In this document: positions 11,600 to 60,208 of the stretch, piece by piece
Layout of the letters: every line of letters begins with the position of its first letter
How positions within the stretch are numbered: the stretch's first letter is position 1
From: Stentor roeselii
Lineage: Eukaryota > Ciliophora > Heterotrichea > Heterotrichida > Stentoridae
Direction: 5' to 3'
Length of the DNA: 64,000 bases
NCBI GenBank assembly: GCA_006503475.1
Contig: RSEH01000200.1
Span: 25,578-89,577, forward strand
The notes under the pieces: model-generated
What the model was told of the DNA's origin: nothing
What the model saw: the letters and a program-made list of their open reading frames with translations, nothing else
Database searches by the model: none
Program-made: the position numbers and the translations under genes

Positions 11600-12226
11600 C
11601 TAACAACATTTCCCACCTTCACTCTTCTTGCTTGTCTTTTTTAAGTCGATGTTCGGCTTGAAGTCTTCTTCTTCTTTCACTTGACTTAAGGCTTTTCTTG
11701 CGATTGCTTGGAAGGCTTCGTCTACGTTTAATGCTTCTTTTGCTGAAGTCTCGTAAAAGGGGATGTTACCGTTAGTGTTGCACCATTGAGATGCTTTTGA
11801 GGCTGGAACTTTTCGGTCGGGTTCTCTGTCTAGCTTGTTGCCTAGAACGACGAATGGGAAGTTGTCAGGATCTTTCGGGTTCGACTGGTTCAAAAACTCA
11901 TCCTTCCACGAGGCCAACGATTCAAAGGTTTTGACAGCAGTGATATCATAGACCATGACACAGCAGTCAGCCCCTCTATAAAACGCGACACCAAGGCTTT
12001 GAAACCTTTCTTGTCCAGCAGTATCCCAGATCTGCAGAGTGACAAGCTTATCATCTATCATGACTTCTTTCGTCAAGAAGTCAGCGCCAATGGTCGCTTT
12101 GTACTGCTGAGAAAAACGTTTATTCACATACTGATTCATTAGAGAAGTCTTTCCAACTCTACTTAATAATTACGCTGAGTCTCCAAGGATAATTACTTTG
12201 AGAAGATGCTTTCGACCTGTTGACAT
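11600..12226 (-). CDS. RAB7: Small GTPase Rab7
   Basis: A 203-residue Rab7 after removal of one 15-nt intron (12159-12173). Exon 1 reads [18 protein letters not shown], and exon 2 continues [15 protein letters not shown], restoring the P-loop. Other G motifs are present: WDTAGQERF (switch II), NKLD and ETSAK. The C terminus GGKCC carries the double Cys for geranylgeranylation. Rab7 controls late endosome/lysosome (and phagosome) traffic. Without the splice the N-terminal 25 residues and the nucleotide-binding loop would be missing, so the intron is well supported. It ends in TAG. Confidence 0.97.
12159..12173 (-). other. 15-nt intron in RAB7
   Basis: Sense-strand sequence GTAATTATTAAGTAG. 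It starts with GTA, has A at position 10 and ends in TAG. It interrupts the P-loop Ala codon (GC/A, phase 2) and contains in-frame stops. Removing it restores an uninterrupted, conserved Rab7 N terminus. Confidence 0.95.
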
Positions 12227-12390
12227 ATTTATTTCGCTGGGTTCGAAACACGCTTAAATCATCGGAAAAACTTAAAAAATTGAAGAAAATTCTTGAAAAG
12301 GTTTAAATCCTGAAGTAAAATCGATTTTTTCCTCTTTTATTCCACTTTATAGAAAAATTTTAAATTTTCAGATTTTTCTTTCAACATCGC

Positions 12391-15300
12391 ATGAAAAGTG
12401 TTAAATTAATAATGGATGAAGAAAATATATTCAAATCGGCTGACATCCTTGAGTCACAACTTGACAAAATTCGAGAACTGTATCTTTTACTAAAAGAACT
12501 GAAAAGTCGCCATGAAGTCACAATGGACCCCAGGATGAAAACGCGAAGTCAAAAGTTGGTTTATTGTTCAAAGCAAGAAAATCCTCTTATAAAAGACCCA
12601 GACTCCCAAAAAGTCCACCGCGAGCAACTTATCAATAAAATCAGTGAAATCCCTTCATTGAAGCCAGTCGCTTTCTACGCAGATCAACTTTTTTCAGAGT
12701 ACCTTTCAAGTGAGTTGAAAGCCAGTCCTTCTGACATCCGAAAGGTGGTCTCAGATCATTTTTTCAACAAGATTCGTTACTTACAACAGTTAAAATTTAA
12801 AATACTTTTAAACTGGGGCCACCAGGCTGAAGAAAGTCAAGAAGTTCATACAAAAGACTTAGAAATTCAATTAAAAGTCCTTCAAAAGCAAATCGAGGAC
12901 TCAATTTCACGTTTTGAGCGACTTCGATACGACGAAGAATACGACAACACCCGTGCAAGGCCTTCTCCAAAGACTGAAGACGGTACAAACTTATTCCATG
13001 AAGAGCCAGTAGTAGCTTTCAGTAACCTTTCAAAAGACGACCTTCAGATTTACATCGAGGATGAAGTTTCCAGTCTTAAATCAAAGCGGCACTTATCACG
13101 TTTTCAATCTCGACTCACTTGGCTGTGGGTAGGTCAGCGAGTGAACATCTGGAAAGCCTCCATGGTTTACCTTAACACCCTACACAAAAAGTCCCTTACC
13201 CGAATGTTCCGCATAAAAGGCAAGGCCTTAGAGATGCCGACGGATCATCGCGAAAACATCGACATGCCCCCCACGATTATCACTTCTACTCAACAGCTCC
13301 AAGTCCTTCTTAACAGCATCGGGGAAGAATTCGGACTGAAGACTGACCTGGAGTTAGATGACGGTCACTCTTTAGCCTATCAAGTCACTCACCTCCTTCC
13401 TGAACTCTTCGAACTGCAGAGGCAAAGACTTGACTGGAACCCGACTGGCTCTCCAGAAGAAAGAGAAAAGGCAGAAATTCGATTCGCTAATTTACAGTCT
13501 TTAAAAGTCCATCGACTTTCAGCTATTCGCAAAGCTAATTCAGTTTCACAACCTGGAGGCGCTGAAGATACTACTTTAATCAGGCCTTTCAAAATGCTTG
13601 ATGCGAAAAATGCTGAATGGCTCGGGTTCATCAAGTTGAAACCTCAGGTCAGCTCTTGGGAAAGACGACAACGGGCGAGACTTGACTGTTGTAAAAGAGA
13701 TCAACTGCTTGAAAATGCTTTTAATGTGCTTAACTTGCAGGACTTGCCTACTGTTAATAAGCTTTTAGAAGAGTTCGCTGTTGGATATGCTGATAGGGCT
13801 AATCGGATTTTAAAGGTCAAGCCAGAGCAGGTGAGATCTGAAGGGAGTGACTTGGGAGTATGCAGCAGTTACTTCACGAATATTATTATTGAGAGAAATT
13901 TAGACCCGAAGGTTGTGAGTGAAGGTGTTAACCTCCCTTCACAATGTATCAAGTCTTTGTACACCTTGAGTATGATTAAAAGTCGAAATAAAAAACAAGA
14001 ACTTTTCAATATTTTAAATGTTTTTAGAGCTGTGCAGAAAAGACTTGCTTTTGATATCGCTGATCTTGGAACTCGAGAAGAGGTCAGACCTGATGAGCCT
14101 AGGACTGAACCTCCTCAGGTTAAAAAAGGATTTAATCCGTGTTTGGGTTACTCAGAAGGAGAAGTTATTGAATTCAGGACTAAGGCTTTTTTAGGGTTGA
14201 ATGGCAGACGAGATACTATTGAGACCTTGTATGGAGATTATTATGTCAGGAATAATAGAGGAGTGCATATTGTTTACTCTATCATCGACAAGGACTACTC
14301 AGAACTAGTAGAAGAACTTATTAAAATTGGAAGTTATTTCATTGAAAAGTACGAACAAAGTGACTCCAACTCTTTCATTGATCGAGATTTTTTTGCTTCG
14401 GAACTTTTAGAAGCTGAAGTTGACTTCCAGACAACTAAACTACAGCTGGTGTTGATTTACCTGCAGATGTATGAACACGCTGTAGACAACCAGGCTGAAA
14501 TCGCTCAGAAAATCACGAATCTTATGAGCATGAGACCGCGACTTCATCTAAGAAGTACTTATTTCAGCCAAAGCTACTGGGCACATATCGATTCTTTAAA
14601 GTCTCAAATCGTCCTGCTTAACACCCTGATCGACGTGAAAAACAATGAAAATCAATTCGACCCTCATATGTCAGGTCTCGTTCAAATCTCAGCAAATATT
14701 GATAAAAACTTATCCGAAATGAATCTTTTAATGGAAATTGAATCTCCACTTCATTTTTCCGCTTTTGAAATGGCGACTTGGAATCAATGTTTGTATGAAT
14801 GGAAAGTTTCTCAGTGTTACTCTTTGGTCTTGTTTGATGATGGAGTTCTTGTTGATAAGCCGTCTTTTATTCTGAGTCTTGCAAGAGAATTGAGTTTTGA
14901 AGTTCAGTCGGGAAATATCATTAATTTTCCTATTGTTCCTCCTGGATTTTATGAGGGAAAAAAAGTTAAAATTCTCTCAGCTTGTCCTAGTGAATTAACT
15001 ATTTGTTGCAATTATTTTGAATTGTGGAGACTTAGAAAATTACTGGAAAATTGTCTTATTGAATGTATGGTTCTTGAAGAGATTTATAAAAAACAGTCTT
15101 CTTTGATGAAAAAAGATATTCATACTGTTGAACATGCTGATCTTGGAATGGGATTGAGACATTTTCCTGAAGTTGATGATGGACCTGGAACTAAGGAGGA
15201 TTATTGGCTCCCTGCTTTTGAATTTGACTCGAAACTTAAAGCGCATTTTCATTTGTCTAGTATTCCAGCGGTTAAGTACTTAATGCTTCCCTGGGGAATA

Positions 15301-18300
15301 GAAGAGATGAGATCAATATATGCATACCAAGTGATGCACAAGCACTTACTCTCCATCGCGATCCAACAAAACCAATTCGTTCTTGACAAATTCCTAAAAA
15401 ACGTAGCAGAAATCGAGTTATTCCGAGACCATTCCCTAGTAAGTTCCAGTTTCACCTTCCCAGTGCGTTCTCTCTACCAAGACCACAAATTAAACCTCGA
15501 AAAAACCGATTCCGAAATAAAAAAAATCTTCTCTAAAATCGTAGTCGACGCTTCAAAAAACTACTTCGACACAAAATCCCGTAAAATGCGAAACCGCCAA
15601 AGAATGGAAGGCGCTTACAAAAGAATAGCAGAGAAATTTAAGTCCTTTTTCTTAGAAACCGACCATATCGGAATCCTTATCCGTAATCTGCGAGTTTTAA
15701 TCATCGACGGGTACTGCCGCGAAGTACTTCGAGACGCTTACCACGACGCGATCCGAGTTCAACTATGTAAAATTTCACATGAATACAAAAGAATTTTGAA
15801 ACTTGTACCGATGGATGTTTTGAATGATACTTTTGAAGCTTCTGATGATAGACCGAAATCGATTCTAGATGGAGAAGTTGTTAATGTTGAATTTATTTTA
15901 ACTGTTGATGAAATCATGAAAATTAAAGGTTTTCGTGAAGAGGACAGGGAACACTGGAGGGGCTGGGAAGGGTTTATCAAGGCTGAGACTTCTGACGTGC
16001 TTAGTACTTATCGACCGCTGAAGACCAGAGAGGCAGTGGTTTCTAATATGGTCTTTAAAAATGACTGGGAATTTAAATCGCAGTTGAGAACTGTTTTAGA
16101 AGTTTTTGTTTCTGTTGTGCAGGTTTTGCAGATCTGGACTTTTCTTAACTTGTTAGGAGAAAAAGTCTCTGAAGTTATGAATATGCAGGATTCTACACTT
16201 GCTGGGGAAAATTATTGGGGAGTTGATGTTACGAATGTTGGGGAAAAGTCGAAAAAGAAGATTTTGGATGAAATGCTTGATACTCAGAATCCGAAGTATT
16301 TACTTGAAGAAGCTATTAAAAGGTCTCTTAGCAATCTTAAAGTTATGTCGTTACAGTTTAGTGAGCTGCCGAGGACTGATGATATTCCCATGTCTATCTT
16401 TCAGGCTAGAAGAGCGTTTTATATACTTGCACTTGCTTTGTTTCAGTCGTATCATCATAGTTTGATGCATGAAAAAAATCGTGACTCGGATAAGGTTATT
16501 GATTTCATTTCACATCTTTTTAGACTTTCTAGGACTCGAGTACAGGTGAATTCCTTGCCAGTAGCATGTTTATTTTCAGACCCATCATGTGAAGTTCTAG
16601 AAAAAGTCCAAAGTAAAATCTTCATCTGCAACGACATAGACGAGTTCCTTCCAGGGTGTTACATTTACGAGTTCGAATGGGGTATGTTAGAAGCAACATC
16701 AGAAGAGCGAAACCACACTTTAGCCACCACAACCGCAATGCAACTAAAACTTGAAAACCTTCTTTCCCTCCGCAGTTCAGCCAAGGGTTACTCCTCATTA
16801 GAAATCGCTCAATCAACCTGCAACTACATGTCTCCAGAGCTAGAAGCCTGGCGTCTTAAAACATCTTTATTCGTGTTAAAATCCGGAGACCTAATCCGAG
16901 ACCCTTCCCTTTACGAGAAACTTTTATCACAATTCAAAGACGTCCTCGAATGGCGTTCAAACAAGTCCTTCACTTCAGACACAGACGACCATGTCAGAAA
17001 TCCAGTGATTTCAGAAGTAGTCCTTCTTCGAGAAATCTTCAACTCGAAGCTCTGCAACAGTTCAATTCATTTCATGCAGACTGTCGCTGACCAACTCTCC
17101 CGGGCGACGTCAGTCGACGCGCCTTGTGTAAGTACAGAAAACTTCACTTGTAACATTTTAAAGCCATTTACAGATATCAATCGAAAAGTAGGAGTTCTTC
17201 ATAATTTTCTCAATGTTCTTAGAAATCGAGGGTCTATCGTTGATGCCCCGGTGACTGGGAAGGCCCTGGTGTTTTCAATGAAAGACTTGACACAACTTAC
17301 GAAAAGATTCACTGAACAGATATTGAGATATGTTGACAGTGAGTTCAGGGTCCAGGCGGAAAATCAAGAAATCGAACTTGTGAAGATCACGGCTGAAGTG
17401 ATGAAGAGGAATAAAGAGATTCATGTGTTTAAAAGGAATATTAAAGCCTTGCAAGAAAGTATTATCAACTTGGTCAGTTCACAACTGGCTCAAAAAGGAA
17501 CTCAGCTTATTTATGAACTTGATATTTCTTTTAGACAACTCAGTGAAATCAGAGATAATAGTAAAAACCTTGAAAATCAACTGGTTTCTTTGATAAGGAC
17601 TGAACTTTCAGATAAAATTCGCAGACAACAGCAGAAAATCAGAAGCCTTGAAGAAAAATTCACAGAGTTCAGAGAACAGGTGGCCCAGGAGATAAAAACT
17701 GACATCGAAAGCAAGAAAAATGAAGCACTTAACGAGCTAAAGGGCAGTGCAGGGAAGTACAAAAACATAAACACTTCAGAAGTGAAAGAATCAGTCAAAA
17801 ACCCGAAAAGCAAGAGAACTCTTGTAAGGATTCAAGAAATGATAAAAAAAATGCTGCAACAAAATCAATGGGCTAGATTGAAAACTACTCAAAATTACGA
17901 TAAACATCTACAGGACCTGAAATCGCAACTTAGCTCTAATCAGTACCTCTGGGAACAGCTGAATGAGTCTCAAAGAAGAGAAAACTTATTGAAACAAGAA
18001 CTTTCTTACACACAACAAGCTCTGTCAGCTGCTGAAAAACTCGCTGAAAAGCTTCAGACTCAAATCGAAGACATGAACAATCAACGCCTACGCCTTCAGC
18101 AGTACAAAGCGAATAAAGGAAAAAGACTGTCAGAACTTGAAGACCAGGTGAAGCAGTTTGAGAAAATCGAATATTTAGACAATCAGAAGCTTCTTAGTAG
18201 TTATATTAAACAGCAGAGAAGGATTCAAATACAGAAAAATGGAGAAATGGACAGTTTTAATCAGTATTTAAGTCAACATAAAGGCTTTCAAAGGGAAATC

Positions 18301-18627
18301 AATGAATTAAAGCAAAAGATTAAGAAAGAGAGAAGACTGAAAATGGAAGCTTATGACCAGCTCAGCTTGTTTAAAGAAGAAATGCAGGGAATTGAACAGG
18401 ACCAAGACCCCAGTCTTAAGCTCTGGCAAAGCAGGTATCATGAAATTTTAGATGAAATTCGCAGCAGTAAGGAAGAAAATATCAAATTGAGAGAAAGGAT
18501 CTCTGACCAGGGAGACTATGAGTTTATTGACAAGTTTCCTGACTTGATTAGACCTAAAAGCAACTTGTCTTTACCAAGTGTTCATCTAAGGACCCCACGG
18601 TCTTCATCATTTAGAAGTAATCATTAA
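12391..18627 (+). CDS. Giant protein with C-terminal coiled coil (2078 aa), possibly CCDC162/DUF4549-like
   Basis: A single uninterrupted frame of 2078 residues, the longest gene in the window. Residues 1-1640 look mostly alpha-helical and globular, without a motif I can name securely. Residues about 1645-2010 form long coiled coils (RIQEMIKKMLQQNQWARL, then Gln/Glu/Leu-rich heptads), and the tail is Ser/Arg-rich. The size, N-terminal helical pattern and C-terminal coiled coil recall the CCDC162/DUF4549 family found in ciliated eukaryotes; this is a tentative memory-based match, not a demonstrated one. A nearby alternative ATG (residue 8) would remove only seven residues. The ATP synthase delta gene starts 26 bp after its stop. 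Confidence 0.88.
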   Translation: MKSVKLIMDEENIFKSADILESQLDKIRELYLLLKELKSRHEVTMDPRMKTRSQKLVYCSKQENPLIKDPDSQKVHREQLINKISEIPSLKPVAFYADQLFSEYLSSELKASPSDIRKVVSDHFFNKIRYLQQLKFKILLNWGHQAEESQEVHTKDLEIQLKVLQKQIEDSISRFERLRYDEEYDNTRARPSPKTEDGTNLFHEEPVVAFSNLSKDDLQIYIEDEVSSLKSKRHLSRFQSRLTWLWVGQRVNIWKASMVYLNTLHKKSLTRMFRIKGKALEMPTDHRENIDMPPTIITSTQQLQVLLNSIGEEFGLKTDLELDDGHSLAYQVTHLLPELFELQRQRLDWNPTGSPEEREKAEIRFANLQSLKVHRLSAIRKANSVSQPGGAEDTTLIRPFKMLDAKNAEWLGFIKLKPQVSSWERRQRARLDCCKRDQLLENAFNVLNLQDLPTVNKLLEEFAVGYADRANRILKVKPEQVRSEGSDLGVCSSYFTNIIIERNLDPKVVSEGVNLPSQCIKSLYTLSMIKSRNKKQELFNILNVFRAVQKRLAFDIADLGTREEVRPDEPRTEPPQVKKGFNPCLGYSEGEVIEFRTKAFLGLNGRRDTIETLYGDYYVRNNRGVHIVYSIIDKDYSELVEELIKIGSYFIEKYEQSDSNSFIDRDFFASELLEAEVDFQTTKLQLVLIYLQMYEHAVDNQAEIAQKITNLMSMRPRLHLRSTYFSQSYWAHIDSLKSQIVLLNTLIDVKNNENQFDPHMSGLVQISANIDKNLSEMNLLMEIESPLHFSAFEMATWNQCLYEWKVSQCYSLVLFDDGVLVDKPSFILSLARELSFEVQSGNIINFPIVPPGFYEGKKVKILSACPSELTICCNYFELWRLRKLLENCLIECMVLEEIYKKQSSLMKKDIHTVEHADLGMGLRHFPEVDDGPGTKEDYWLPAFEFDSKLKAHFHLSSIPAVKYLMLPWGIEEMRSIYAYQVMHKHLLSIAIQQNQFVLDKFLKNVAEIELFRDHSLVSSSFTFPVRSLYQDHKLNLEKTDSEIKKIFSKIVVDASKNYFDTKSRKMRNRQRMEGAYKRIAEKFKSFFLETDHIGILIRNLRVLIIDGYCREVLRDAYHDAIRVQLCKISHEYKRILKLVPMDVLNDTFEASDDRPKSILDGEVVNVEFILTVDEIMKIKGFREEDREHWRGWEGFIKAETSDVLSTYRPLKTREAVVSNMVFKNDWEFKSQLRTVLEVFVSVVQVLQIWTFLNLLGEKVSEVMNMQDSTLAGENYWGVDVTNVGEKSKKKILDEMLDTQNPKYLLEEAIKRSLSNLKVMSLQFSELPRTDDIPMSIFQARRAFYILALALFQSYHHSLMHEKNRDSDKVIDFISHLFRLSRTRVQVNSLPVACLFSDPSCEVLEKVQSKIFICNDIDEFLPGCYIYEFEWGMLEATSEERNHTLATTTAMQLKLENLLSLRSSAKGYSSLEIAQSTCNYMSPELEAWRLKTSLFVLKSGDLIRDPSLYEKLLSQFKDVLEWRSNKSFTSDTDDHVRNPVISEVVLLREIFNSKLCNSSIHFMQTVADQLSRATSVDAPCVSTENFTCNILKPFTDINRKVGVLHNFLNVLRNRGSIVDAPVTGKALVFSMKDLTQLTKRFTEQILRYVDSEFRVQAENQEIELVKITAEVMKRNKEIHVFKRNIKALQESIINLVSSQLAQKGTQLIYELDISFRQLSEIRDNSKNLENQLVSLIRTELSDKIRRQQQKIRSLEEKFTEFREQVAQEIKTDIESKKNEALNELKGSAGKYKNINTSEVKESVKNPKSKRTLVRIQEMIKKMLQQNQWARLKTTQNYDKHLQDLKSQLSSNQYLWEQLNESQRRENLLKQELSYTQQALSAAEKLAEKLQTQIEDMNNQRLRLQQYKANKGKRLSELEDQVKQFEKIEYLDNQKLLSSYIKQQRRIQIQKNGEMDSFNQYLSQHKGFQREINELKQKIKKERRLKMEAYDQLSLFKEEMQGIEQDQDPSLKLWQSRYHEILDEIRSSKEENIKLRERISDQGDYEFIDKFPDLIRPKSNLSLPSVHLRTPRSSSFRSNH

Positions 18628-20142: not shown

Positions 20143-20679
20143 ATGTCTAAAAGCAAAGTAATCGAAATCAATTCCTTAGAAGATCTAGAAGACCAAGTCG
20201 ATATTCTAAAGTCCTTATCAGAAAACCTTAAAAAGGCAGGTCTTGCGCGATCTGAATTAGAAGTGGTACTTAAAACTTAGTATATGAATGAGTACATCAT
20301 TCTTGAAGATACTATTCATCAAGGCATAAAAATTTTAGATAAAAGCTTGAAAATTGCTCTAGAAAGACAAGCCTTTGATGGCCAAATCGAACTTTTCAAT
20401 ACTCTTACTTGTGACTTTCAAGATAGCTGGAATGATGAATACTGGGCTTGCTATGAAATGATCCGAGAAGGAGATGCTTTTACAAAAAAGGTCAGAAATT
20501 CGGATGAGCAAATCAACCGACTTCAAAATTTGGCGATTATTTTAAATAAAGACTCAAAAGATGATAAAAAAGAAGAAAGCAAAGCACTAGAAGAAGTTGA
20601 TGAACTTTCAAAAAAATACAAACCTGGCAACCATTCAGAGCCGATAAATAGAAAATGTTGTGACTGCTTAATTATGTAA
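20143..20679 (+). CDS. Small CaaX-terminated protein, one 15-nt intron (173 aa)
   Basis: Unrecognised. Two exons join across a 15-nt intron at 20266-20280. Exon 1 encodes 41 residues from MSKSKVIEIN to SELEV and exon 2 continues YMNEYIILEDT. The first exon alone is a 46-codon frame ending at the intron's TAG. The spliced product is helical and acidic and ends NRKCCDCLIM. CLIM fits a CaaX farnesylation box, and three Cys nearby could be palmitoylated. A membrane-anchored adaptor-like role is inference. Codon use matches its neighbours. Confidence 0.85.
20266..20280 (+). other. 15-nt intron in small CaaX protein gene
   Basis: GTACTTAAAACTTAG: GTA start, A at position 10, TAG end, phase 0. The retained form stops at the intron's own TAG; removal joins two frames into a continuous helical protein. 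Confidence 0.85.
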
Positions 20680-24855: not shown

Positions 24856-24862
24856 ATTTATA

Positions 24863-26182: not shown

Positions 26183-27085
26183 CTACCCGTCGTATGTCCC
26201 TGGACCTGGAGTGTCGATTATTTGACTTAAAGGAGGACGCACTGACTTCCCCATTATCGGCCCTGACTTCAAAGTTCCAGACAATTCATAAGACCCAGGA
26301 CCAGGACGGTCTGAAAACCTTACCTTTAAATGGTTTGACTTCGAAAAAGAGAATTTACCTGAAGTTTCTGTAGTTGTTGGAAAATAAGCTCCTGGACCGG
26401 GACTACCTTTTTTTGATGCTGAAGACCTGCGCACGTTCATTGAATATCGGGGAGTCACTGGCTCTGAGCAGATTGAGTAACTACCCGGACCGGGACTTAC
26501 TTCTTTTTGGCTTTTTGAGTACCTTCCGGCTTTTGATATTGAGAAAATGGGACCTTGCTGAGATATGTCTGGGTTGTAAGACCCTGGACCTGGAAGTTGG
26601 GAAAAGTCACGGAACCAACTGTTTCTTCTTGCTTTTGGAACTGAGTAAAAAACTTTTGTTTCTGATGATTTTGGACTGTATTGACCTGGGCCTGGAGCTC
26701 TGCTCAGAGTTTGGATTGGGTTGGCTAAGGGAATTTTATACTTTGGTGAACCATCATGATTTTTCGGTTCATAAGTTCCAGGTCCAGGATTAAGTGTCGT
26801 TAAATGAATTTCTCTTCTCTTTTCTTTAGGAAATCTAAATAAACCCTACACAGTCTTCGGAGGACTAATCAAAGTCTGTTCAGGTGAATACTCTCCAGGT
26901 CCAGGGTTAGAAAACCTGATTTTCGCCATGAGTCGATTGGAGGTCCCGATTCTAACAGCAGGACAAGACTCATAGTTAAACATGGTAGGCGAGTAAGTTC
27001 CCGGCCCAGGGCCAAGTTTATTCACTTTCAAAGGTTTTCTTCCTCGAAAAGACCAGGAAGGGGAGGTCTGTCTAAAGTAACTCAT
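26183..27085 (-). CDS. STPGR/SHIPPO-repeat (ODF3/CIMAP-like) axonemal protein, one intron
   Basis: A 295-residue protein encoded by two exons joined across a 15-nt intron (26835-26849). It carries nine PGPG-type repeats: LGPGPGTYSP, NPGPGEYSP, NPGPGTYEP, APGPGQYSP, LPGPGSYNP, SPGPGSYSI, SPGPGAYFP, RPGPGSYEL and TPGPGTYDG, spaced about 25-38 residues apart. This STPGR pattern marks ODF3/CIMAP and other microtubule-inner or outer-dense-fibre-type ciliary proteins. Without the splice the gene would be split by TAG after the second repeat; the third repeat resumes just beyond the intron, so splicing is strongly supported. Confidence 0.93.
26835..26849 (-). other. 15-nt intron in STPGR-repeat gene
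   Basis: Sense strand GTAGGGTTTATTTAG: GTA start, A at position 10, TAG end, phase 2. It removes an in-frame TAG and joins repeats two and three in the same frame. Confidence 0.9.
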
Positions 27086-34132: not shown

Positions 34133-35344
34133 ATGGAACCTGGCAAGCTGGAAAATCATGAAATCAGTCAAGTGCTTGATTCTATTCTGACGGGGCCGGA
34201 GTATTTGCCAATTAATGAGCATATGAATCAGTTTGAAGATGCTTGGGAAGAAGCTCAGGCTGGAGAAAATTGGTCACATCTTGACTCAGCATGGAAAGAA
34301 GCGGAAAATCATCACGAAAATAATCCCTGGGTTCAGTCAAAACAGATGAGCCAAGATGAGTTTTGTGAGTTTTGGCAGCATTTATGGCCATCCGAAAACT
34401 TCCAAGAGATCGAATACACCTTCGACGAATCAAACCCATTCCTAGGCCGTTCAGACCTTTCAGAATGTCTCTCATCCTCTCTATTATCCGGTCAAATCTC
34501 AGAGAGTATCCAAATCCTAGAAGCCCTAGTCCTAAAGGACCCTTCAAGCTCTGAATGTTGGATCCTTCTCGGCAAGTTAAACGCTGAAAACGACGAAGAC
34601 AACCATTCAATATCCGCTCTAAAGCGTGGATATTCGCTGAGCCCATCAGACCCAGAAGCAAAGGCAGCTTTAGGAATCGGTTTAATAAACGCCAAGCAAG
34701 GTGAGAGCGCAATGCATCTTTTAACCTCTTGGCTCTTATCAAACCCGATCTTCCAGTCCCTGACCTCGTCAAGCGTAGACTTAAAGGACCGTACAATAGA
34801 CCTGCTGATTCAAGCAAGTAGTTTAAAGCCAGAAGACTCGAGTCTGCAGCAGGTCCTGGGCTCCTTGTACTTCATGATGAAAGACTACGACTTGGCAGTC
34901 AGTGCCTTTGAGAACTCAGTGGCTCTTGACCCGCAGAATTATTACTCTTGGAATCGACTCGGAGCGGCCTTGGCTCATCAAGGGCAAAATGAAAAAGCGG
35001 TCCAAGCTTATCATAAAGCCATTGAAATCAGGCCGAATTATGTCAGGGCTTGGGCAAATTTGGGAATCGCTCATGCAAATATGGATCGAATGGTTGAAGC
35101 TTGTCAGTTTTACTTGTGTGCTTTGAAATTGAATCCTAAAGCTTTTCATGTTTGGAATTATTTGGTTACTGCTTTTACTTGCTTGAGTAAGGGATAGGTA
35201 GGAAGGTTTGATTTGATGGAAATGGTGAAAAATTTTGATGTTTTGAGCTTTCAGAATGAGTTTCAGTTTTTGCAGTTTTTAAATTTGAATGATGGGAAAG
35301 TTGCTGAGGAATGGGTGGAAGAGTTTGGGAAGTTACATAATTAG
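34133..35344 (+). CDS. PEX5: Peroxisomal targeting signal 1 receptor PEX5, one intron
   Basis: A 398-residue protein after a 15-nt intron (35187-35201). The N-terminal third has WxxxF/Y-type motifs (WEEAQAGENW, WKEAEN, WQHLWP). Six to seven TPRs follow (about 105-345), ending with LGSLYFMMKDYDLAVSAFE, NRLGAALAHQGQNEKAV and ANLGIAHANMDRMVEA, the core PTS1-binding repeats. The splice adds the PEX5 C-terminal helical tail (RRFDLMEMVKNFDVLSFQNE), which otherwise would be lost at a TAG inside the intron. PEX5 shuttles SKL-type cargo into peroxisomes. Its stop overlaps the stop of the converging CK1 gene. Confidence 0.93.
35187..35201 (+). other. 15-nt intron in PEX5
   Basis: GTAAGGGATAGGTAG: GTA start, A at position 10, TAG end, phase 1. 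Removing it replaces an early stop with 47 further residues that look like the PEX5 C terminus. Confidence 0.88.
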
Positions 35345-39625: not shown

Positions 39626-40747
39626 ATGGAAAGCCGGGATGTGAACAGGAAAAATCAAGTCAGCATCGACTCGCCTGCCCAGCAGGTCTTTTTTTTCCCC
39701 TGTGGGTCGATTTCTTCATATCAAGACTCGATTGAATTCCCTGAAGACGACCATTCAGATAGCTTTTTTATTCAGAATTCAATTGAAAACTGTGAAAAAT
39801 CACTTGGCCCTGGAGATTTTATTACTTTTGACCAGGTTTCTATTGAAAAACTTAAAATTGAAGGACTTTTAAGTCCTTTAGAATTCACCGCAAGTTTTGA
39901 AAACTGTCGTAAATTTGTGGATGTTGGGACGAATTTTGATAGTTATAAAGAGGTACTTGAACATGTTTTAAAGGAACTTAATGAAAAAAATAAAATTGTT
40001 GTGATTTTGACGGATGAGGTGAAAAAATTAGAGATGGACTTGAGTGAGATGGAAAAGTCGAAGAATGAGATGGAAAAGTCGAAGAATGAGATGGAAAAGT
40101 CGAAGAATGAGATGGAAAAGTCGAAGATTGAAATGGAAAAGTCGAAGATTGAAATGGAAAAATCGAAGATTGAAATGGAAAAATCGAAGAATGAAATAGA
40201 AAAATCGAAGATTGAAATAGAAAAATCTAAAGATGAAATCGAAAAAGTCTTAAAAACCTCCAAAAATGAAATTGAGAGACTTAAAGAAAAACTTAAAATG
40301 CAGGAACTTGAAATGTTTAAAATAAAAAATTGCATTGAAGAACTTGCAGATGATGACGGGTCAAGTAAAACTTGTAGAGGTGGAGCGGATGGATTATTGG
40401 CCAAGTTGGAACTGATCAGAAAGAAACTTAAAGGGGAAAAGTTTATCAGTCCAGTGAAGCCAGAGTTAAAAAAAAAGCTGATGATTATGGAAAAAAAAGT
40501 ATTTGACTTAGAAGACGAAATTAAAACAGAACGACCGAAAAGCAGTCTTCATCCAAGTTTCGATAACTGTGAAAGAATCACTTATAAAGAAGTACTTCGC
40601 GACTTGAAAGAAATCACGAGTAGGGCAAGCAAAGCATTAAAAAACAGCAGCTTAAACAGAAGAGCCTCAAATGTACAGGGATATCCTCGCAGTTCTTTAG
40701 ACCGGACGTCATGTGAAAAGGCATTCAAGTCATCGAATCGTTACTAA
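39626..40747 (+). CDS. Coiled-coil protein with perfect heptad repeats (373 aa)
   Basis: Unrecognised. The start is the ATG at 39626; the frame also extends 11 codons upstream through a TTG but overlaps the divergent gene. The N-terminal 110 residues are globular or acidic. Residues about 115-245 form a coiled coil whose centre is nine consecutive seven-residue units of the form (M/I)EKSK(N/I/D)E (residues 142-204). The C-terminal third is Lys/Ser-rich with a further helix. The exact seven-residue period means the repeat is itself a coiled-coil heptad. A structural filament or spacer role is inference. Confidence 0.85.
   Translation: MESRDVNRKNQVSIDSPAQQVFFFPCGSISSYQDSIEFPEDDHSDSFFIQNSIENCEKSLGPGDFITFDQVSIEKLKIEGLLSPLEFTASFENCRKFVDVGTNFDSYKEVLEHVLKELNEKNKIVVILTDEVKKLEMDLSEMEKSKNEMEKSKNEMEKSKNEMEKSKIEMEKSKIEMEKSKIEMEKSKNEIEKSKIEIEKSKDEIEKVLKTSKNEIERLKEKLKMQELEMFKIKNCIEELADDDGSSKTCRGGADGLLAKLELIRKKLKGEKFISPVKPELKKKLMIMEKKVFDLEDEIKTERPKSSLHPSFDNCERITYKEVLRDLKEITSRASKALKNSSLNRRASNVQGYPRSSLDRTSCEKAFKSSNRY
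40049..40237 (+). repeat. 21-bp tandem repeat, nine units, coding
   Basis: Nine in-frame 21-bp units begin ATGGAAAAGTCGAAGAATGA and run without gaps. Units 1-3 are identical; later units accumulate changes in order (AAT to ATT, AAG to AAA, ATG to ATA). Each unit encodes one heptad. Confidence 0.95.
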
Positions 40748-43103: not shown

Positions 43104-44909
43104 TTATAATAAAATTGTTTGCAACTTTAGACTTAAATTATCTAAACTTTCGAACAAACTACACTGAGTGCAATTCGAATATTTTTCCATACAAACTGGA
43201 CAAATATTATGTTGAGGTTTGCATTCCTGACAAATATAATTTCCACAAGGACTGATCAAAATTTTACTTTTTTCCATAGAACAATTTTGACACATCAAAT
43301 GAGCCTTGACTAAAATAAGTGCATCTCTCAATTCACATTCTTTAATTTCCTGATCTTTTCCTTCATACTCTTTAATTTCCTTATCTTCCTGTTCACATTT
43401 AAAAGGTGTTGAGCAAGCTTCTAACTGTGAAATGATTTCATCTTTATTTTTAATGAGATCTTTGTAATAGTTCAAAGTTTTTCTTAATTTTTCAACTTCA
43501 ATTGCATTATTAGTTGATTCAGTTTCCGCTTGTAGAAGTCTGCTGGCATATCTGGAGATTTCATCTCTAACAAACCCGGAGAGTGATTCTTCAGAGTCCC
43601 TGAGTGACAAGTTTCTTTTGAGTTTAAGTGTTTCAGCGACTTGTTTTTCCGCATTGACTCTTTCATTTTCCACTTGATTAAGAAGCTCTTGAATGGACTT
43701 TTGGTAGTTTTCTTCCTTTATCCTCCATTCGAGACGATGGACTTCGAAGGTGCGCTCGAGTCTGCTCAGGGTTTTATTCAGCTTTTTTATTATGTCTGTG
43801 TCTTCTGAGTGTTTTTGCTCGAGAGATATGATAGAAACGCTTTGGTTTTCTAGTTTTCTCATTGTTGTCTCGTATTTCTTTGCTTTTTCTTCTACAGTCA
43901 TCAGCTGTTCTATTAGGTTTTGGTGTTTTTGTTTTAGTAACTCGTATTGCTGCTCTACTTTTAGGTAATCGTTTCGGTTTTTTATCATGTTTGTTTCGAG
44001 ATCTTTCATGCTTTCTGTGAGACGTTTTTTTGAGTTTTCGTTACGGAAAAGTAGGTCTTTTAACTGGTCGCATTCCTGATTTTTTTCCTGAAGATCAAGT
44101 TTGAGTTCATTTAAAGCCGACCCTGTTCTTTCAGTGAGTTCTTGACTTTCAGTTTTGATTTGTAAACACTGTTGTTTAAGTTTAGCTTTATCTGATTTGA
44201 GCTTATCAATTTTCCTAGAAAGTTCTTGAATGAGTGCTTTGAGGTTCGAGTTTTCATTTGAGAGTCCATTCAAGTCCTCTTTTCTTTCTTTCCTAATGAA
44301 TCCATCAGTGATTTCCTTTCTTTTGAGTAGTTCTTGAGTTTTCACCAAATCATTCTGAATATTCGCAATAGTTTCCGTCAATATTTGTATAGAAAACCTT
44401 TCTCTATCATCATAACTCGAATCATCAGTCGATGTGATCGAAGGATAAAGCGATTCAAGTGACGAGTCAATTTTCAGCGACTTTTCAATAGAAATCAACA
44501 CATTTTGATGATATTTTATTTTCTTGGTCTGTTTATTTCTTACCCTAGCCTCAAGTCTGCCTTTCAAGTTTTCAATTTCGCTTCGAAGAGTGATTAAAGT
44601 CCAATCTTGCATACTTTCTTCAAGAATCGATTGAGACCCGCTTATCTTCACTGGAGCGATTTCGTCCATCGTGAATCTTGTTTTGATTATTTTCTTCTTT
44701 TCTCGAGGAGACTCTTTCAGTTTACCTGTTCGAGACCCGAGAATGTTCACTGGAGAGTCTGTCTTTTCCGTCAACAACTTTTTGGAAATCTTTTGAGTCG
44801 CTCCTATTGTTGGAAGACGAGGAGAACGCAGGTAGGAAATTTTTGTTTCTGGTCTTGGGGATAAACTTTTGATTGTTGGAGTTGAAGACTCTTGACGTAG
44901 CTTTTGCAT
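43104..44909 (-). CDS. Coiled-coil protein with C-terminal RING-like finger
   Basis: A 601-residue protein. A basic Ser/Pro N terminus (1-90) precedes a long coiled coil (about 100-510). A RING-like finger sits at about 535-575: CQNC...SPCGNYICQEC...CPVC. Spacing matches C3HC4 RING (C-x2-C-x11-C-x-[H]-x2-C-x2-C-x6-C-x2-C), except that the His ligand position is Asn. E3 ubiquitin ligase activity is therefore possible but uncertain. The overall layout (long coiled coil then terminal RING) resembles BRE1-type and similar E3s; orthology is not claimed. Confidence 0.88.
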   Translation of the reverse strand: MQKLRQESSTPTIKSLSPRPETKISYLRSPRLPTIGATQKISKKLLTEKTDSPVNILGSRTGKLKESPREKKKIIKTRFTMDEIAPVKISGSQSILEESMQDWTLITLRSEIENLKGRLEARVRNKQTKKIKYHQNVLISIEKSLKIDSSLESLYPSITSTDDSSYDDRERFSIQILTETIANIQNDLVKTQELLKRKEITDGFIRKERKEDLNGLSNENSNLKALIQELSRKIDKLKSDKAKLKQQCLQIKTESQELTERTGSALNELKLDLQEKNQECDQLKDLLFRNENSKKRLTESMKDLETNMIKNRNDYLKVEQQYELLKQKHQNLIEQLMTVEEKAKKYETTMRKLENQSVSIISLEQKHSEDTDIIKKLNKTLSRLERTFEVHRLEWRIKEENYQKSIQELLNQVENERVNAEKQVAETLKLKRNLSLRDSEESLSGFVRDEISRYASRLLQAETESTNNAIEVEKLRKTLNYYKDLIKNKDEIISQLEACSTPFKCEQEDKEIKEYEGKDQEIKECELRDALILVKAHLMCQNCSMEKSKILISPCGNYICQECKPQHNICPVCMEKYSNCTQCSLFESLDNLSLKLQTILL

Positions 44910-45339: not shown

Positions 45340-47682
45340 TTAAAACCCAGGAGGAGGTTTGAACATTGAATAATCAATCCAAGAATAATCAGAATGATTA
45401 AACGTCTGTAGCCGTTCACTAAAATCCTCACTCTGTATCTTAACCCGTTCATTCCTCCCTTTACTCTTCTTTCCAAGGTCCCTAGTAAGCGAATACGAAT
45501 AATCAGTGCTTCCACTTTCATTATAAGCATCAAAAAAATAATTAGGTTCCTCCTCATGCTTGATGATATCAGCAGGTAAAGCCGAGATATTTACAACTTT
45601 TTGCCAGTCCTGACTTTCAGTGCTAATCGAACTTTGATGAAAAAAAGTTGGAGAACTGGTCCTGTCATTAAAGTTGTCCCAAGACTTGTCGAGAAAAGGT
45701 TCATAAAAATATGAATAAGCTGGAGGTTTCACTAAAAACACCAAATTTGAAACACTTGATCGGATCACTTCAAACTTTTCTTTCGCATGTGTCGAGATGA
45801 AATCGATTAGTCCTGATACTCGATAAGCTTTCCAGTCGATTTTACCGATTAGGTGAAAAAGTTGAATTTCTAGCTTTTTGTCGTCGATTCCAAAGTTAGC
45901 GTTTTCTAAAAGAGTTGAGAGTCCTGAGATCAGTTTTTCTAGTGGTGGCATTGTTGGTGCTCGGGAAAGCACGGCGAAGGGATGGTTAGTATCCCGCAGT
46001 TCTATAGAAATCTCCGGAAACGTCGCAAGAAGATCTTTAAGCTTAGCAAATCCCAGATCAGCGATATTAAAATTAAAATCCAGCTGTGCCTTCAGGTGCA
46101 TCGGTAACTGAGCAAGACTAATTCCATTTTCGCTATGTTCCAAAATAGAAATAATAGAAGATTTAATTTTTTGTATTCTCCGAAGTGTTTCATGTTTCGA
46201 TATCATGTTATTGGTACTAGGTGTCCAAACCAGCAAAGTCCTTTGATACCTTAAAAAGTCCTCATTAATCGCAAGTTGAATCATATAACTCAATTTCCCA
46301 AGACTAAAAAGCCTCAACCCAGGAGGTCCACATATTTTCAAAAACTGAGCACATCCATATCTACCCCCAGGAATACTCTTCACTTCTTCATCCTTCTTCG
46401 GTCTTCTTATTCCTTTATGCGAAAAATACCCTTCAAGAAATTTAATCATTTCTTTCCATTCCTGACTTTCCATTAATTTCAACTCATCTCCAAATTTCGA
46501 GTTGGTGTCTAAAGCCTGCCAATACTCTCCAGAAGGATAAATAAGTAAAGTCCTTACATTACTCAAAGGATCTACCACTTCTTTAAAGCTGAACTTCGGT
46601 GAAATCACAGGTCTTGAAAAAAGGCTAAAGCCAGGAGCTGAGTTTGAATAAGAATGTCCTCTGGCCTGTGCTAAAAGGTTCTCCCAGTCATTTGGACTTG
46701 GCTTGAAGTCAAAAACTTCTCGCATGCGGGTTTGAATCGCTTTTTCACTGGGAAGCATCTCATCAGCACATAAGGACCGAAGAGTCCAAGTCAGACATTC
46801 CAAAGTCCCTGAAGTTACTTTAAGACTAATAAAGTCAAATGAAAAGTGGTCGAATTGTTTCGAGCTTAAATAAATTTGCTTTGATTTTTCAAGGTCTTCT
46901 AAAATTTTTTGAATTTCTTCTGGGACTTGCTTTAGTTTTAAACTTTGAGAATTCACAAATTCTTTGTATTCGAAAATCACGGTTCCTTTATTTGCTTCTT
47001 CTTTTAGAAAATTTAAGATCTCTGTGCTGGAGTTTTTTTCTTTTCGTGTCTCTTCTTCGAGGGTCTTTTGGATTTGAAGAGGAAGGATGCTGCTGCTGAT
47101 CCAGAACTCAACTGCTGGGATGTTTGACTTTAGTTGAAGGAGGTGAGGAGTGAAGGTTTGGAATTGAGATGATATTACAAGGACGTGGGTTAGTCCTGTG
47201 TTAAGGGAAATCGACAGGTCAAGTAAAAGTCCTTCGTAGGTCTTGATTCCCGACTTGTTTACACTTTGGATTCCGTTTGTTGATAAGGAATCTTTCCATT
47301 TGCCCCAAGGGTCTCCATAAGCTTTAATGAACTCTGGGGTTCCAACTTTCTGATTAATTTCCTTATTAAGCAGTCGAATGTCTTCTCCTCTTGTTGGCCG
47401 GCACGATGAGATATCCCAAAAAATACCTACTCTTTTAGAAGCACCTAACTGCCGCAAGGGATGATCTTTGTGAGAAGCTTCACATGAACTACAGAGCTTT
47501 TTCTCACATTTTACGCATAAACGCACTGCCTGGTTCTTGCAGTTTATGCACACCAAGGGGCGGGTGTGAGTTTTTCTTTTGCCTCCTTTGTGCAGGTTTT
47601 CGTTGCAGTCTGCGCAGAGTGATTGGTCACACTCGATGCACAGGTACTCGCATTCTTTGGAGAGACATTCTTCACACTTCAT
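45340..47682 (-). CDS. B-box-like zinc finger + NYN-like + LOTUS (OST-HTH) domain protein
   Basis: A 780-residue protein. Residues 1-76 hold two B-box-like Cys/His fingers (CEECLSKECEYLCIEC..., CINCKNQAVRLCVKC...). VGIFWDISSCRPTRG (85-99) matches the start of a MARF1-type NYN RNase domain, extending to about 215, but the later catalytic Asp cluster is not obvious (a SSQFQ segment stands where MARF1 has STDVN). Two LOTUS/OST-HTH-like winged helices lie at about 500-570 and 585-655. MARF1 and LOTUS proteins act on germline or meiotic RNA. The B-box N terminus is an unusual addition. The C terminus ends in a Pro-rich FKPPPGF. Confidence 0.85.
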   Translation of the reverse strand: MKCEECLSKECEYLCIECDQSLCADCNENLHKGGKRKTHTRPLVCINCKNQAVRLCVKCEKKLCSSCEASHKDHPLRQLGASKRVGIFWDISSCRPTRGEDIRLLNKEINQKVGTPEFIKAYGDPWGKWKDSLSTNGIQSVNKSGIKTYEGLLLDLSISLNTGLTHVLVISSQFQTFTPHLLQLKSNIPAVEFWISSSILPLQIQKTLEEETRKEKNSSTEILNFLKEEANKGTVIFEYKEFVNSQSLKLKQVPEEIQKILEDLEKSKQIYLSSKQFDHFSFDFISLKVTSGTLECLTWTLRSLCADEMLPSEKAIQTRMREVFDFKPSPNDWENLLAQARGHSYSNSAPGFSLFSRPVISPKFSFKEVVDPLSNVRTLLIYPSGEYWQALDTNSKFGDELKLMESQEWKEMIKFLEGYFSHKGIRRPKKDEEVKSIPGGRYGCAQFLKICGPPGLRLFSLGKLSYMIQLAINEDFLRYQRTLLVWTPSTNNMISKHETLRRIQKIKSSIISILEHSENGISLAQLPMHLKAQLDFNFNIADLGFAKLKDLLATFPEISIELRDTNHPFAVLSRAPTMPPLEKLISGLSTLLENANFGIDDKKLEIQLFHLIGKIDWKAYRVSGLIDFISTHAKEKFEVIRSSVSNLVFLVKPPAYSYFYEPFLDKSWDNFNDRTSSPTFFHQSSISTESQDWQKVVNISALPADIIKHEEEPNYFFDAYNESGSTDYSYSLTRDLGKKSKGRNERVKIQSEDFSERLQTFNHSDYSWIDYSMFKPPPGF

Positions 47683-55669: not shown

Positions 55670-56863
55670 TTAATCAGTGTTTAGTTGATAGTCTTGTCTG
55701 ATTACGTCGAGATTTTCTCTGTTTTCCATCATTTCTTCTTCTTCCATGCCGTGAGACACAAACCAATGAACATATGCTCGTTTAGCAAATATCAAATCAT
55801 AATCGTCAGCAATGCCAGCAAGTAAATTATCGGTTTTATTAGAAATTGAGTATATACCAGCTTGTCTCTCTTCGAACCTTGTAGAGAAAGTTTTAGAAAC
55901 TACTGAGTTAAAATTCTCAGAAATGCTTTTTTCAACAAAATCGTCAACTTTTTCAGGTCCCTGGATTACTGAAACCACATTTTTATGATAAAATACTTTT
56001 GTTTGGTTTCTTACTAACGAGGAAGTTGATAAGCGCTCTATAATCGAGTTCCAATCATCAGCAGGTTGTTTCAATCTAAAACCCGGAGCGAATGCAGGAG
56101 TAATAAACTTCCCTTGAACTTCATTAAAAATCACCTTCAAGTAATCATCTACTTTCCCTTCATCCCCACTGAAAACAGACGTAAAATTCTGCAAAGCCCT
56201 AGCAAATTCTTCATTAATCTCTTGAAATTCAGGTTCTAGATCAAACATCTGATTAAACCTTTCATAAATCGCGAGATTATCATAAGTAATTACAAAATCA
56301 GAGCAACTTCCAGCAGTAACAACAGAATGAGCTGAATTATAAGGTTCCACAACAACCTTCCCCATTTCTTCACAAGGAAAAACCAAAACAGACCCAATAA
56401 TACATTTTTCAAACTCATCTCTAAGAAACTTATGCACAACATTCGCCAGTCCAGACCCTGCACCACCTCCAGTTCCATTACAAATAACGAAAGACTTGAT
56501 ATTTTCCGAGTTTTCCACTTGATTCCTGATTTTTTCACATAATTCCATTAAAAAAATCTTCGAACTCGTGTATTTCACTGAAGGGTAAACATTTCCTGAA
56601 TCACATTTCAAGTCTAATGAAAGACCTTCGAAGTTTCTCCAATGTTTGCTTTTGTTTAAGTCAGAAATCGCGAAGTCTTCAGTGTCGATGAACAATGCTC
56701 TGGGGATTAGGGTGTTGTTAGGTGTTATTTTTAGAAGACTATTGAGGTTGTTGCTTGTTTGATTGGTTTCGAAGGGGTTAATGGTTTCGAGGATTTGGTT
56801 CCAGAAAGAATTTCCGAGGTTGATTCCTGAATTTCCTAAGTGGATGAAGAGAGTTTCTGACAT
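55670..56863 (-). CDS. Highly divergent tubulin, alpha-like C terminus (397 aa)
   Basis: The N-terminal motif IHLGNSGINLGNSFW parallels the tubulin GQxGxQxGxxFW. The phosphate-binding loop is present as GTGGGAGSGLA (130-140; canonical GGGTGSG with Thr to Ala). VVEPYNSAHS, DNLAIYERF and the alpha-type LIFAKRAYVHWFVSHGMEEEEM are recognisable. The chain is about 50 residues shorter than ordinary tubulins, lacking the long acidic tail and much of the early region, and the alpha catalytic Glu on helix H8 appears not to be conserved. It could be a basal-body or noncanonical tubulin or a GTP-binding relative without polymerisation. Confidence 0.9.
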   Translation of the reverse strand: MSETLFIHLGNSGINLGNSFWNQILETINPFETNQTSNNLNSLLKITPNNTLIPRALFIDTEDFAISDLNKSKHWRNFEGLSLDLKCDSGNVYPSVKYTSSKIFLMELCEKIRNQVENSENIKSFVICNGTGGGAGSGLANVVHKFLRDEFEKCIIGSVLVFPCEEMGKVVVEPYNSAHSVVTAGSCSDFVITYDNLAIYERFNQMFDLEPEFQEINEEFARALQNFTSVFSGDEGKVDDYLKVIFNEVQGKFITPAFAPGFRLKQPADDWNSIIERLSTSSLVRNQTKVFYHKNVVSVIQGPEKVDDFVEKSISENFNSVVSKTFSTRFEERQAGIYSISNKTDNLLAGIADDYDLIFAKRAYVHWFVSHGMEEEEMMENRENLDVIRQDYQLNTD

Positions 56864-58180: not shown

Positions 58181-58726
58181 TTAAAAAGGATTCGCGAATG
58201 AAAACTCGAGAGCGCTTTTGTAACGAGGATATTTTTCTTTGAATATTAAGTTGTTCACGCGTTTTAACATTTTTCTTTGGAAGACTTCGGGATTTGAGGG
58301 GTTTTTCATGGAAGTGATTATTTTTTTTACCCGAAGAACTGGCTTGAAATTGCTTTGGGTACTTCGAACTGAGTTTTTCGCGCTAAATGTGGGGTTTATG
58401 ATGATGTTGTCGTTTTTTGAATGCTGATCTGTTTTGATTATGAAAGTTGATGAATTTTTAAAGTGAGGGGATTTTTTGTTGAATTTTGATTGAAATTTTA
58501 AGGGAGCAAAGGAAGTTTTTACGATTGTTGGCATGGGCCTAAAGATGATTGTTTTTTCCGAAGTGGCAGTCTTGTGACATGCTGGTTTAAGTACAGGAGT
58601 CTTCACAACTTTAGTAGAAAACTCATTAAACGGGTCGACTCTTGGTCGACTAGCACTAAGAACTTTTCTTCTAAACAAACTATCAGAAGCAGACCTTTTA
58701 ATAGTCCTGATTGGTGACTGAAACAT
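58181..58726 (-). CDS. Hypothetical basic protein (181 aa)
   Basis: Unrecognised. Starts MFQSPIRTIKRSASD, is basic throughout (many Lys, Arg, Ser, Asn) and has little predicted order until a C-terminal stretch (FQRKMLKRVNNLIFKEKYPRYKSALEF). The ATG start, a 20-bp spacer from the UTP3 stop and 26 bp to the SNARE gene support its being a gene in the co-directional run. Confidence 0.7.
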   Translation of the reverse strand: MFQSPIRTIKRSASDSLFRRKVLSASRPRVDPFNEFSTKVVKTPVLKPACHKTATSEKTIIFRPMPTIVKTSFAPLKFQSKFNKKSPHFKNSSTFIIKTDQHSKNDNIIINPTFSAKNSVRSTQSNFKPVLRVKKIITSMKNPSNPEVFQRKMLKRVNNLIFKEKYPRYKSALEFSFANPF

Positions 58727-58746
58727 TTTTACTTTCGAATATTAGA

Positions 58747-59457
58747 CTAAGCAAGTTTAACACTTTTCACAATGTTCTTGCGAATGCCAGTCGATTCTCC
58801 TGAATACCTGCTGCGATCTTCAACTTCCTTAATACCAAGAGTCGCTCTTCTAATTTTCACTTTTTTCAAATACTTCATTTTATTCTTCACCCTGACGTTT
58901 CTTTCAATCTTTTTCCTTTTTTTAACAATCCCTTTATTTTTCTTGATTTTTTCATCAACTTTTCTCTTATTTTCCCCGTTTTCCTGATTCAAGTCTTTAG
59001 AAAGATCACTTGAATTATCTAAACTTGATTCACTTTCAAAGACTTTTTCTTTATTCTCAACAATTTTCTTTTCAAGATTTTTGATCTGCTGAACGACTGG
59101 ATGATTAGTGGCTGACTTGCCATGAGCCTTAAGCAAAAGATAAAAACTAAGATGAACCGCAAGTATTTTGCAGTATCCAATCAAAGGAAGGTCATTATCC
59201 TTTAAACCTTTTTTGTAAGATTTGATGACTTTTGGAATAGATTCAAGAACAGTCAACATTTCAGGAGAGTCCCTTTCAATGATTTCAATGACTTCATCTT
59301 CAGTCAGCTGTGCGATTTCAGGGTTATCAGTGAAATCAGGTAGAAAGTCAGAATCTTTCAAGACCTCTGCCCTTCTTCTGAGTTTTTCAAGAGCTTCATC
59401 TTCTTCATTTTCACTCTCAGATTTTTGGTAGTAGTCCTTTTTATCCCAACTCGCCAT
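58747..59457 (-). CDS. UTP3: Small-subunit processome protein UTP3/SAS10, short form
   Basis: A 236-residue protein. The Sas10/Utp3/C1D domain lies at about 55-130 (LPLIGYCKILAVHLSFYLLLKAHGKSATNHPVVQ, in two halves). The C-terminal Sas10 domain is clear: KNKGIVKKRKKIERNVRVKN and RSRYSGESTGIRKNI at the very end. UTP3 acts in early 18S rRNA processing in the nucleolus. Yeast and animal versions are about 480-600 residues, so this copy keeps both conserved ends with a much shorter middle. Confidence 0.93.
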   Translation of the reverse strand: MASWDKKDYYQKSESENEEDEALEKLRRRAEVLKDSDFLPDFTDNPEIAQLTEDEVIEIIERDSPEMLTVLESIPKVIKSYKKGLKDNDLPLIGYCKILAVHLSFYLLLKAHGKSATNHPVVQQIKNLEKKIVENKEKVFESESSLDNSSDLSKDLNQENGENKRKVDEKIKKNKGIVKKRKKIERNVRVKNKMKYLKKVKIRRATLGIKEVEDRSRYSGESTGIRKNIVKSVKLA

Positions 59458-59467
59458 CTATTCTTAT

Positions 59468-60208
59468 CTAAAGATTCCTAAGTTCTTCAACAAACTCATC
59501 AATCAAAACAGGCCAGGCTCCATCAGGGTCATAAAAGTTAAGTCCTTCCCTAGCATACCCTTCCAAGAAATCAAGAAGCATATCCCAAGTGTCTTTCGAA
59601 ATATCATACTTTTTATCCCTTCTCTCCAAGAAAGCGATCCAGTTCTCAACAACAGGAAATCTTTCTCCAAGAAGAAGTCTCCATTGTTGAACAGCGACTT
59701 CCATTGGTAAGTTTCTAGTTCCAGGTTCTCTTGAAAATAAAAAGACGAAGCAATAAATTGATTTGAATTTAGAGGAATCTGAAAGTTCTCTACGTAAAAT
59801 GTTGAGTTTTGATTTTAGCTTGTCGATTGTGTCGCAGCTAAGCTGCGACATTCCTGAAATGAACTCTTCTTTACGGTAGATTCCCATTGTCTGTGCGTTG
59901 AAGTACTTTGAAATGACGAGAATGACTGGGTCGAGAGGACTTATGCTTAAATCGTCGCAAAAACGCTGGATTCCTTCGATTTCGATGTCGGGCGATGATG
60001 GGCTCTTGTATTTGTTGAATAAGGACTCGAATGCGCGAGAGTCTACTGCTGGTTTGGTGTCTTTTTGAAAGGCGGATACTGCAGCGTCTACTTCCCAGTT
60101 GTGCTTTGGAAGGTACTTTTTTGCGGTGGCTTCGGAGGATTTGGTTTGCTTTATAAAGGATTGGATTCGCTCTTTTTGACGATTCGCGTTCTATTTGGAA
60201 CTTACCAT
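59468..60208 (-). CDS. DCN1: DCN1-like NEDD8 ligase (DCUN1D), intron after ATG
   Basis: A 241-residue protein. The ATG is separated from the rest by a 15-nt intron (60191-60205); after splicing it reads MNANRQKERIQSFIKQT, then a UBA-like N terminus and the PONY domain (EGIQRFCDDLSISPLDP..., SIYCFVFLFSRE..., DTWDMLLDFLEGYA, DGAWPVLIDEFVE). DCN1 promotes cullin neddylation. No other in-frame ATG occurs until MGIYRKEE (residue 104), which would delete the UBA-like domain and part of the PONY domain, so the one-codon first exon is well supported by homology. Confidence 0.95.
60191..60205 (-). other. 15-nt intron directly after the DCN1 start codon
   Basis: Sense strand GTAAGTTCCAAATAG, immediately after ATG: GTA start, A at position 10, TAG end, phase 0. 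Coding part of exon 1 is three bases. Unspliced it would terminate translation after five more codons. Confidence 0.92.

Follow-up and report, generated by a model that had tools for sequence, protein, structure and literature searches.

The 15-nt interruptions of protein-coding genes described here are very probably U2-type spliceosomal introns, cut down to one 15-nt architecture as in Stentor coeruleus, with both TAG and CAG accepted as endings. At the sequence level they are characterized by a length of 15 nt, GT...AG borders, an A at position 10 (A10), an enrichment of TTT at positions 7–9 and a T or C at position 13, just ahead of the AG. They are a known kind of intron found in another genome, and one part of the rule given by the initial annotation (exactly 15 nt, GTA at the start, A10, TAG at the end) is corrected here, namely the TAG. 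What is fixed (15 nt, A10 and five bases beyond it) can now be told from what is variable (T or C before AG), and the Stentor architecture is extended to another standard-code genome. In the mechanism that we propose, A10 would be the branch point whose 2' OH attacks G1, the lariat would consist of a 10-nt loop and a 5-nt tail, and the spliceosome would act as a ruler fixing both distances.

The window, the whole 64,000-nt stretch of DNA that was analysed (C116:25578–89577), belongs to a genome of 44,391,514 bases in 522 contigs. Our sample comprised the window, the remainder of the contig that holds it, 20 stretches of 10 kb taken at contig starts and a further six shorter loci, in total 30 pieces and 308,387 bases. 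Locus L003 was left out of every count because it overlaps the window, and L004 was left out of the base counts because it was retrieved by an intron's own letters. Loci L001, L002, L005, L026 and L027 were retrieved by searches and retained; the counted introns of L002 and L026 differ from the places that retrieved those loci. The G+C content was 33.7% across the 308-kb sample. Doubled telomere repeats of five kinds were sought, and none was present across the 30 pieces. The 46 stop-to-stop frames of at least 150 codons close with TAA (25), TAG (12) or TGA (9), and when TGA was read as open, 16 of 23 frames of at least 300 codons were without any TGA. This genome reads the standard code, with UGA as a stop. 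Climacostomum is a heterotrich. The standard code is reported for both S. coeruleus and Climacostomum virens in an excerpt of PMC10942620. Judged from its standard code and its type of intron, the present genome is probably that of a heterotrich.

Introns of the window

Each of the five 15-mers of the initial annotation was found at its claimed place, once in the window, and the reading frame stays open at all five sites when the 15-mer is removed. The Rab7 gene (minus strand; exons 12174–12226 and 11600–12158) carries GTAATTATTAAGTAG at 12159–12173, in phase 2 within the P-loop. Across the junction GDSA/VGKT, the spliced protein aligned gap-free with a solved Rab7 chain, and its Pfam Ras match covers almost the whole domain (1–160 of 162). 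In the DCN1-like gene (59468–60208, minus), the phase-0 intron GTAAGTTCCAAATAG (60191–60205) stands straight after the ATG. Its product aligns with DCN1-like protein 1 from residue 4 onward, and coding therefore starts directly behind the intron. Exact copies of this 15-mer also occur at loci L001, L002 and L005, either as candidate introns or by chance. The sperm-tail PG-rich-repeat (STPGR) gene (26183–27085, minus) contains GTAGGGTTTATTTAG at 26835–26849 in phase 2; PGPG repeats flank the junction on each side, and the gene has a SHIPPO-repeat match in Pfam.

For the PEX5-like gene (plus strand; exons 34133–35186 and 35202–35344), splicing out the phase-1 15-mer GTAAGGGATAGGTAG (35187–35201) extends the protein by 47 residues. 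The Pfam stretches and nearly all of the listed PDB matches stop near the junction, and sequence support for this putative intron is moderate. The fifth 15-mer, GTACTTAAAACTTAG (20266–20280, plus, phase 0), lies in a small gene with a CaaX-like motif at its end (20143–20679). This gene had no match in the Pfam search, and the reading frame and the coding score are what suggest its intron. The claim that four of the five introns are demanded by homology or repeat structure was thus slightly generous: it holds for Rab7, DCN1 and the PG-repeat gene, and moderately for PEX5.

Taken by itself, the motif GTA-N6-A-N2-TAG is present 10 times in the window, where 100 shuffles gave 4.5 on average (largest, 9). 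As this enrichment is only about 2-fold, it is the reading-frame context that carries the evidence. A frame-rescue scan of the window with GT[AG]-N6-A-N2-[CT]AG recovered four of the five introns and one extra site, 34818–34832, which lies in another frame of PEX5 and is probably due to chance. The DCN1 intron was missed as it falls below the filter of 15 upstream codons.

Ciliates excise DNA segments and some of the candidates belong to repeated gene families, so that the 15-mers could be thought of as internal eliminated DNA segments, or as artefacts of assembly or pseudogenes. However, the fixed length, the GT–AG borders and A10 suit RNA introns, and the Rab7 and DCN1 genes are intact apart from the 15-mers. 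We give this explanation practically no weight compared with that of spliceosomal introns.

The window also contains the BUD31 gene that the initial annotation had pointed out; the gene is indeed there, but nothing connects this ordinary splicing factor to the neighbouring introns. Other features of the window were observed as well. A 397-residue protein of the tubulin family (55670–56863, minus) has the Pfam GTPase domain (E 2.7e-34) and no further Pfam family, and looks divergent by eye. A single open frame at 45340–47682 (minus) combines B-box zinc fingers, NYN and OST-HTH/LOTUS with its associated domain, an unusual mix. The 2078-residue open frame at 12391–18627 (plus) has zero Pfam matches at E 0.001, and an open frame at 39626–40747 (plus) has tandem repeats of the KSK(N/I)EME type.

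Intron length and the A at position 10

We trained a codon model on the sample and ran a gene finder that permits any GT...AG intron at one length per run. The runs covered lengths 9 to 33, were blind to motifs and were repeated with four control border pairs. Training and test sequence were identical (308 kb), a weakness of the design, and introns are detectable in this way only through an in-frame stop. A dicodon coding model was left unused, as it gave 0.075 and 0.046 nats per codon on held-out halves compared to 0.137 and 0.120 for the codon model. We observed the following. At 15 nt, the GT–AG borders gave 19 introns, against 2 for TG–GA, 1 for GA–TG, 2 for TG–AG and 1 for GT–GA. With the controls in the same order, the numbers were 10 against 2, 7, 9 and 8 at 11 nt; 0 against 0, 1, 3 and 2 at 12 nt; 9 against 15, 7, 5 and 1 at 14 nt; 1 against 4, 8, 6 and 4 at 16 nt; and 3 against 1, 4, 2 and 1 at 18 nt. 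The three introns of 18 nt are 15-mers lengthened at the donor side. Among lengths 9–33, 15 nt was the sole one at which GT–AG stood more than one above the highest control, which bears out the fixed length claimed for these introns.

When lengths 9–40 were jointly permitted, the first model gave 15 GT–AG introns of 15 nt and the retrained one 12, and seven alternative border pairs gave 0–3 introns of this length. At penalties of 4, 6, 8 and 10, the joint run yielded 14, 14, 12 and 10 GT–AG introns of 15 nt, respectively, and the four control pairs 0–2. The 16- and 18-nt candidates of the all-lengths run did not reappear in the single-length runs and were rejected.

The same counts bear on the possibility that the 15-mers are kept in the mRNA and that ribosomes read through or bypass their in-frame stops. 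Retention would preserve the frame, 15 being divisible by three. It does not account for 19 sites with GT...AG borders against 1–2 with control borders, offers no reason for an A10 in 18 of 18 introns, and would put five extra residues into the P-loop of Rab7. We consider it extremely unlikely.

We then counted patterns with a GTAAGT donor in the whole genome. The comparison of 14, 15 and 16 nt that the initial annotation had proposed gave, for the TAG end and the same distance from the A to the end, 57, 275 (A10) and 67 sites, respectively. The expected background of the A class is 37 to 66 for an assumed A share of 0.22 to 0.336. Therefore, 14 nt is without excess, and the excess at 16 nt is small at most.

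The A10 rule itself stood. All 18 sample introns (L004 left out) have A10, and at 15 nt with a TAG end the genome has 275 sites with A10 against 131 without. The A at positions 4–9, 11 and 12 was found in 1 to 10 of the 18 introns, and only one of them owes its visibility to a stop containing A10. At position 3, 17 introns have A and one has G, and this single GTG removes GTA as an absolute start. Position 9 is T in 15, C in two and A in one; position 13 is T in 15 and C in three.

As a control for the whole genome, each pattern was read backwards. The backward counts were 236 for A10-TAG, 621 for non-A10-TAG, 351 for 14 nt and 292 for 16 nt, giving forward/backward ratios of 1.17, 0.21, 0.16 and 0.23, respectively; with the backward control of 236 so near to 275, the A10-TAG excess depends on the comparison with the sister patterns. 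In the 100 sites listed first for each class, TTT at positions 7–9 was found in 31 A10-TAG, 29 A10-CAG and 8 non-A10-TAG sites, and positions 7–9 were all pyrimidine in 57, 59 and 34, respectively. A pyrimidine at position 9 was about equally frequent in these sets (75, 79 and 72).

TAG and CAG endings

The 18 sample introns comprise 11 of phase 0, all ending in TAG, one of phase 1 (TAG) and six of phase 2, of which three end in TAG and three in CAG. As 15 is a multiple of three, a frame-based reading detects an intron only through an in-frame stop. In phase 0, the visible stop was the terminal TAG in all 11 cases. In phase 2 it is a TAA or TAG at letters 2–4, independent of the ending, and in phase 1 it can be a TAA or TAG at letters 9–11. 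Phase-0 introns thus need TAG to be seen, which leads to the dominance of TAG among introns detected by their stops. The TAG ending largely reflects ascertainment. This is a built-in bias of intron finding by reading frame: introns whose length is a multiple of three are visible only by an in-frame stop.

These observations bear on the full rule of the initial annotation, in which GTA, A10 and TAG are all obligatory. TAG does end all five window introns, 15 of the 18 sample introns and all 11 of phase 0. However, in phase 0 an intron is detectable only with TAG, and half of the phase-2 introns end in CAG; a match to the PH domain spans one of these (locus L022). In the whole genome, CAG-ended sites with the GTAAGT donor also have an A10 excess (199 with A10, 173 without; forward/backward ratios, 1.79 and 0.42), and the TTT enrichment is alike for the CAG and TAG endings compared to non-A10-TAG. 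An obligatory TAG is very unlikely, and the architecture that accepts both endings is the reading we prefer. The share of CAG calculated from the genome-wide excess is 0.35 to 0.39, with 95% ranges within 0.27–0.44 over the A shares. In-frame CAG 15-mers in predicted genes form too small a set for an A10 excess to show; with A10 versus without, they number 3 versus 4 in phase 0, 4 versus 16 in phase 1 and 0 versus 2 in phase 2. We found no paper on CAG versus TAG endings in Stentor introns, which does not in itself establish their absence from print; the excerpt of PMC9505925 on S. coeruleus does not take up the T or C ahead of AG either.

Pairs of related genes were also informative. Locus L021 has two genes with 70% identity over 709 residues and an intron site in common, occupied by GTATTTTTTATGTAG in one paralogue and GTATTATTTATCTAG in the other. 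At a second site, GTATGGGTTAAGTAG (3954–3968, minus) stands against GTAAATTTTAAACAG (2231–2245, plus). The latter translates as VNFKQ, free of stops, and from its sequence would be spliced out. At the paralogue sites the letters differ, the length and A10 are kept, and the ending alternates (T or C). For the second site, a nonsense mutation in one of the two genes was considered and rejected, as both carry a 15-mer of intron form there. L021 and L025 encode large proteins with cysteine-rich repeats. The related copies of these genes carry tiny introns, some of them at common sites, and are suitable for a study of intron gain and loss.

If retained, a CAG-ended intron between codons would add five residues and zero stops. 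Such a stop-free class, if true, would be taken for exon in frame-based annotation and would evade nonsense surveillance. It could be that about one-third of the tiny introns are CAG-ended, that those between codons keep the frame open, and that some of the latter are optional five-residue cassettes. The pair GTATGGGTTAAGTAG and GTAAATTTTAAACAG at one site points that way, and we put this forward tentatively, as somewhat less probable than its opposite. In the window, a candidate stop-free CAG intron is GTAAGAAATAAACAG (44529–44543, minus), which has phase 0 and lies in an open frame.

Spliceosome components and related genomes

One U2 snRNA gene was found, carrying GUGUAGUA with GUAGUA intact, and one U6 snRNA gene, carrying ACAGAGA with the ACAGAG motif intact. 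Together with the shared paralogue sites and the gap-free Rab7 junction, the U2 and U6 motifs count in favour of spliceosomal introns.

The distance from branch to acceptor, only five bases, suggested a loss of step-two factors. Contrary to this, Slu7 is clearly present (E 1.5e-34), and Prp18 was weakly detected. The Prp18 candidate reached 26.2 bits by itself and 35.7 when neighbouring pieces were included, the cut-off being 32.5; a phmmer search with it gave a repeat-driven, unrelated chain as the sole match. Judged from these scores, Prp18 is probably present. The presence of Slu7, and probably of Prp18, despite the five-base distance argues against their being dispensable here. In the available part of the S. 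coeruleus report both factors are listed as not found by BLAST, in contrast to the clear Slu7 and weak Prp18 of this genome.

The Cwc25 homologue starts with MGLAFLNKKSWH (MGLAF...), and its alignment with human CWC25 begins at residue 6. According to an excerpt of PMC9505925, human Cwc25 has Gly2-Gly3-Gly4 and Stentor is without this motif. The absence of the Gly2-Gly3-Gly4 plug is shared between S. coeruleus, as far as that excerpt describes it, and the present genome. An altered N-terminus of Cwc25 in a second genome is consistent with the published idea of a steric clash.

The same excerpt gives 8806 introns for S. coeruleus, of which 8173 (92.81%) are 15 nt and 7.19% are 16 nt, with a conserved A at position 10 or 11. 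In this genome no clear 16-nt class was seen, and a small one is possible. From the published portions, both genomes share the 15-nt length, GU...AG borders, an A almost always at position 10, a U-rich branch region, the standard code and canonical U2 and U6 motifs. The A+T content of introns is 75.6% in S. coeruleus, and 70% in our 18 introns compared to 66% in the genome sample. The likeness to Stentor introns and the role of A10 as probable branch point, both raised in the initial annotation, agree with what is already in print for S. coeruleus in the part of PMC9505925 at hand; a passage of PMC10946202 credits Slabodnick 2017 with proposing the conserved A as the branch point.

For heterotrichs in general, part of PMC11441545 gives about 95% of introns at 15 bp and the rest at 16 bp. 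Blepharisma stoltei likewise has introns mostly of 15 and 16 bp, whereas its UGA, a stop here, encodes tryptophan, in the available text of PMC9942806. Loxodes magnus, of the sister group of heterotrichs, likewise has very short spliceosomal introns. Unlike here, their mode is 17 bp, those below 16 bp are negligible and multiples of three are depleted, as described in the same part of PMC11441545.

A further observation concerns the Prp18 candidate (L027, 733–1803), in which long tandem NNTLE(E/G/R)K-like repeats precede the matched part.
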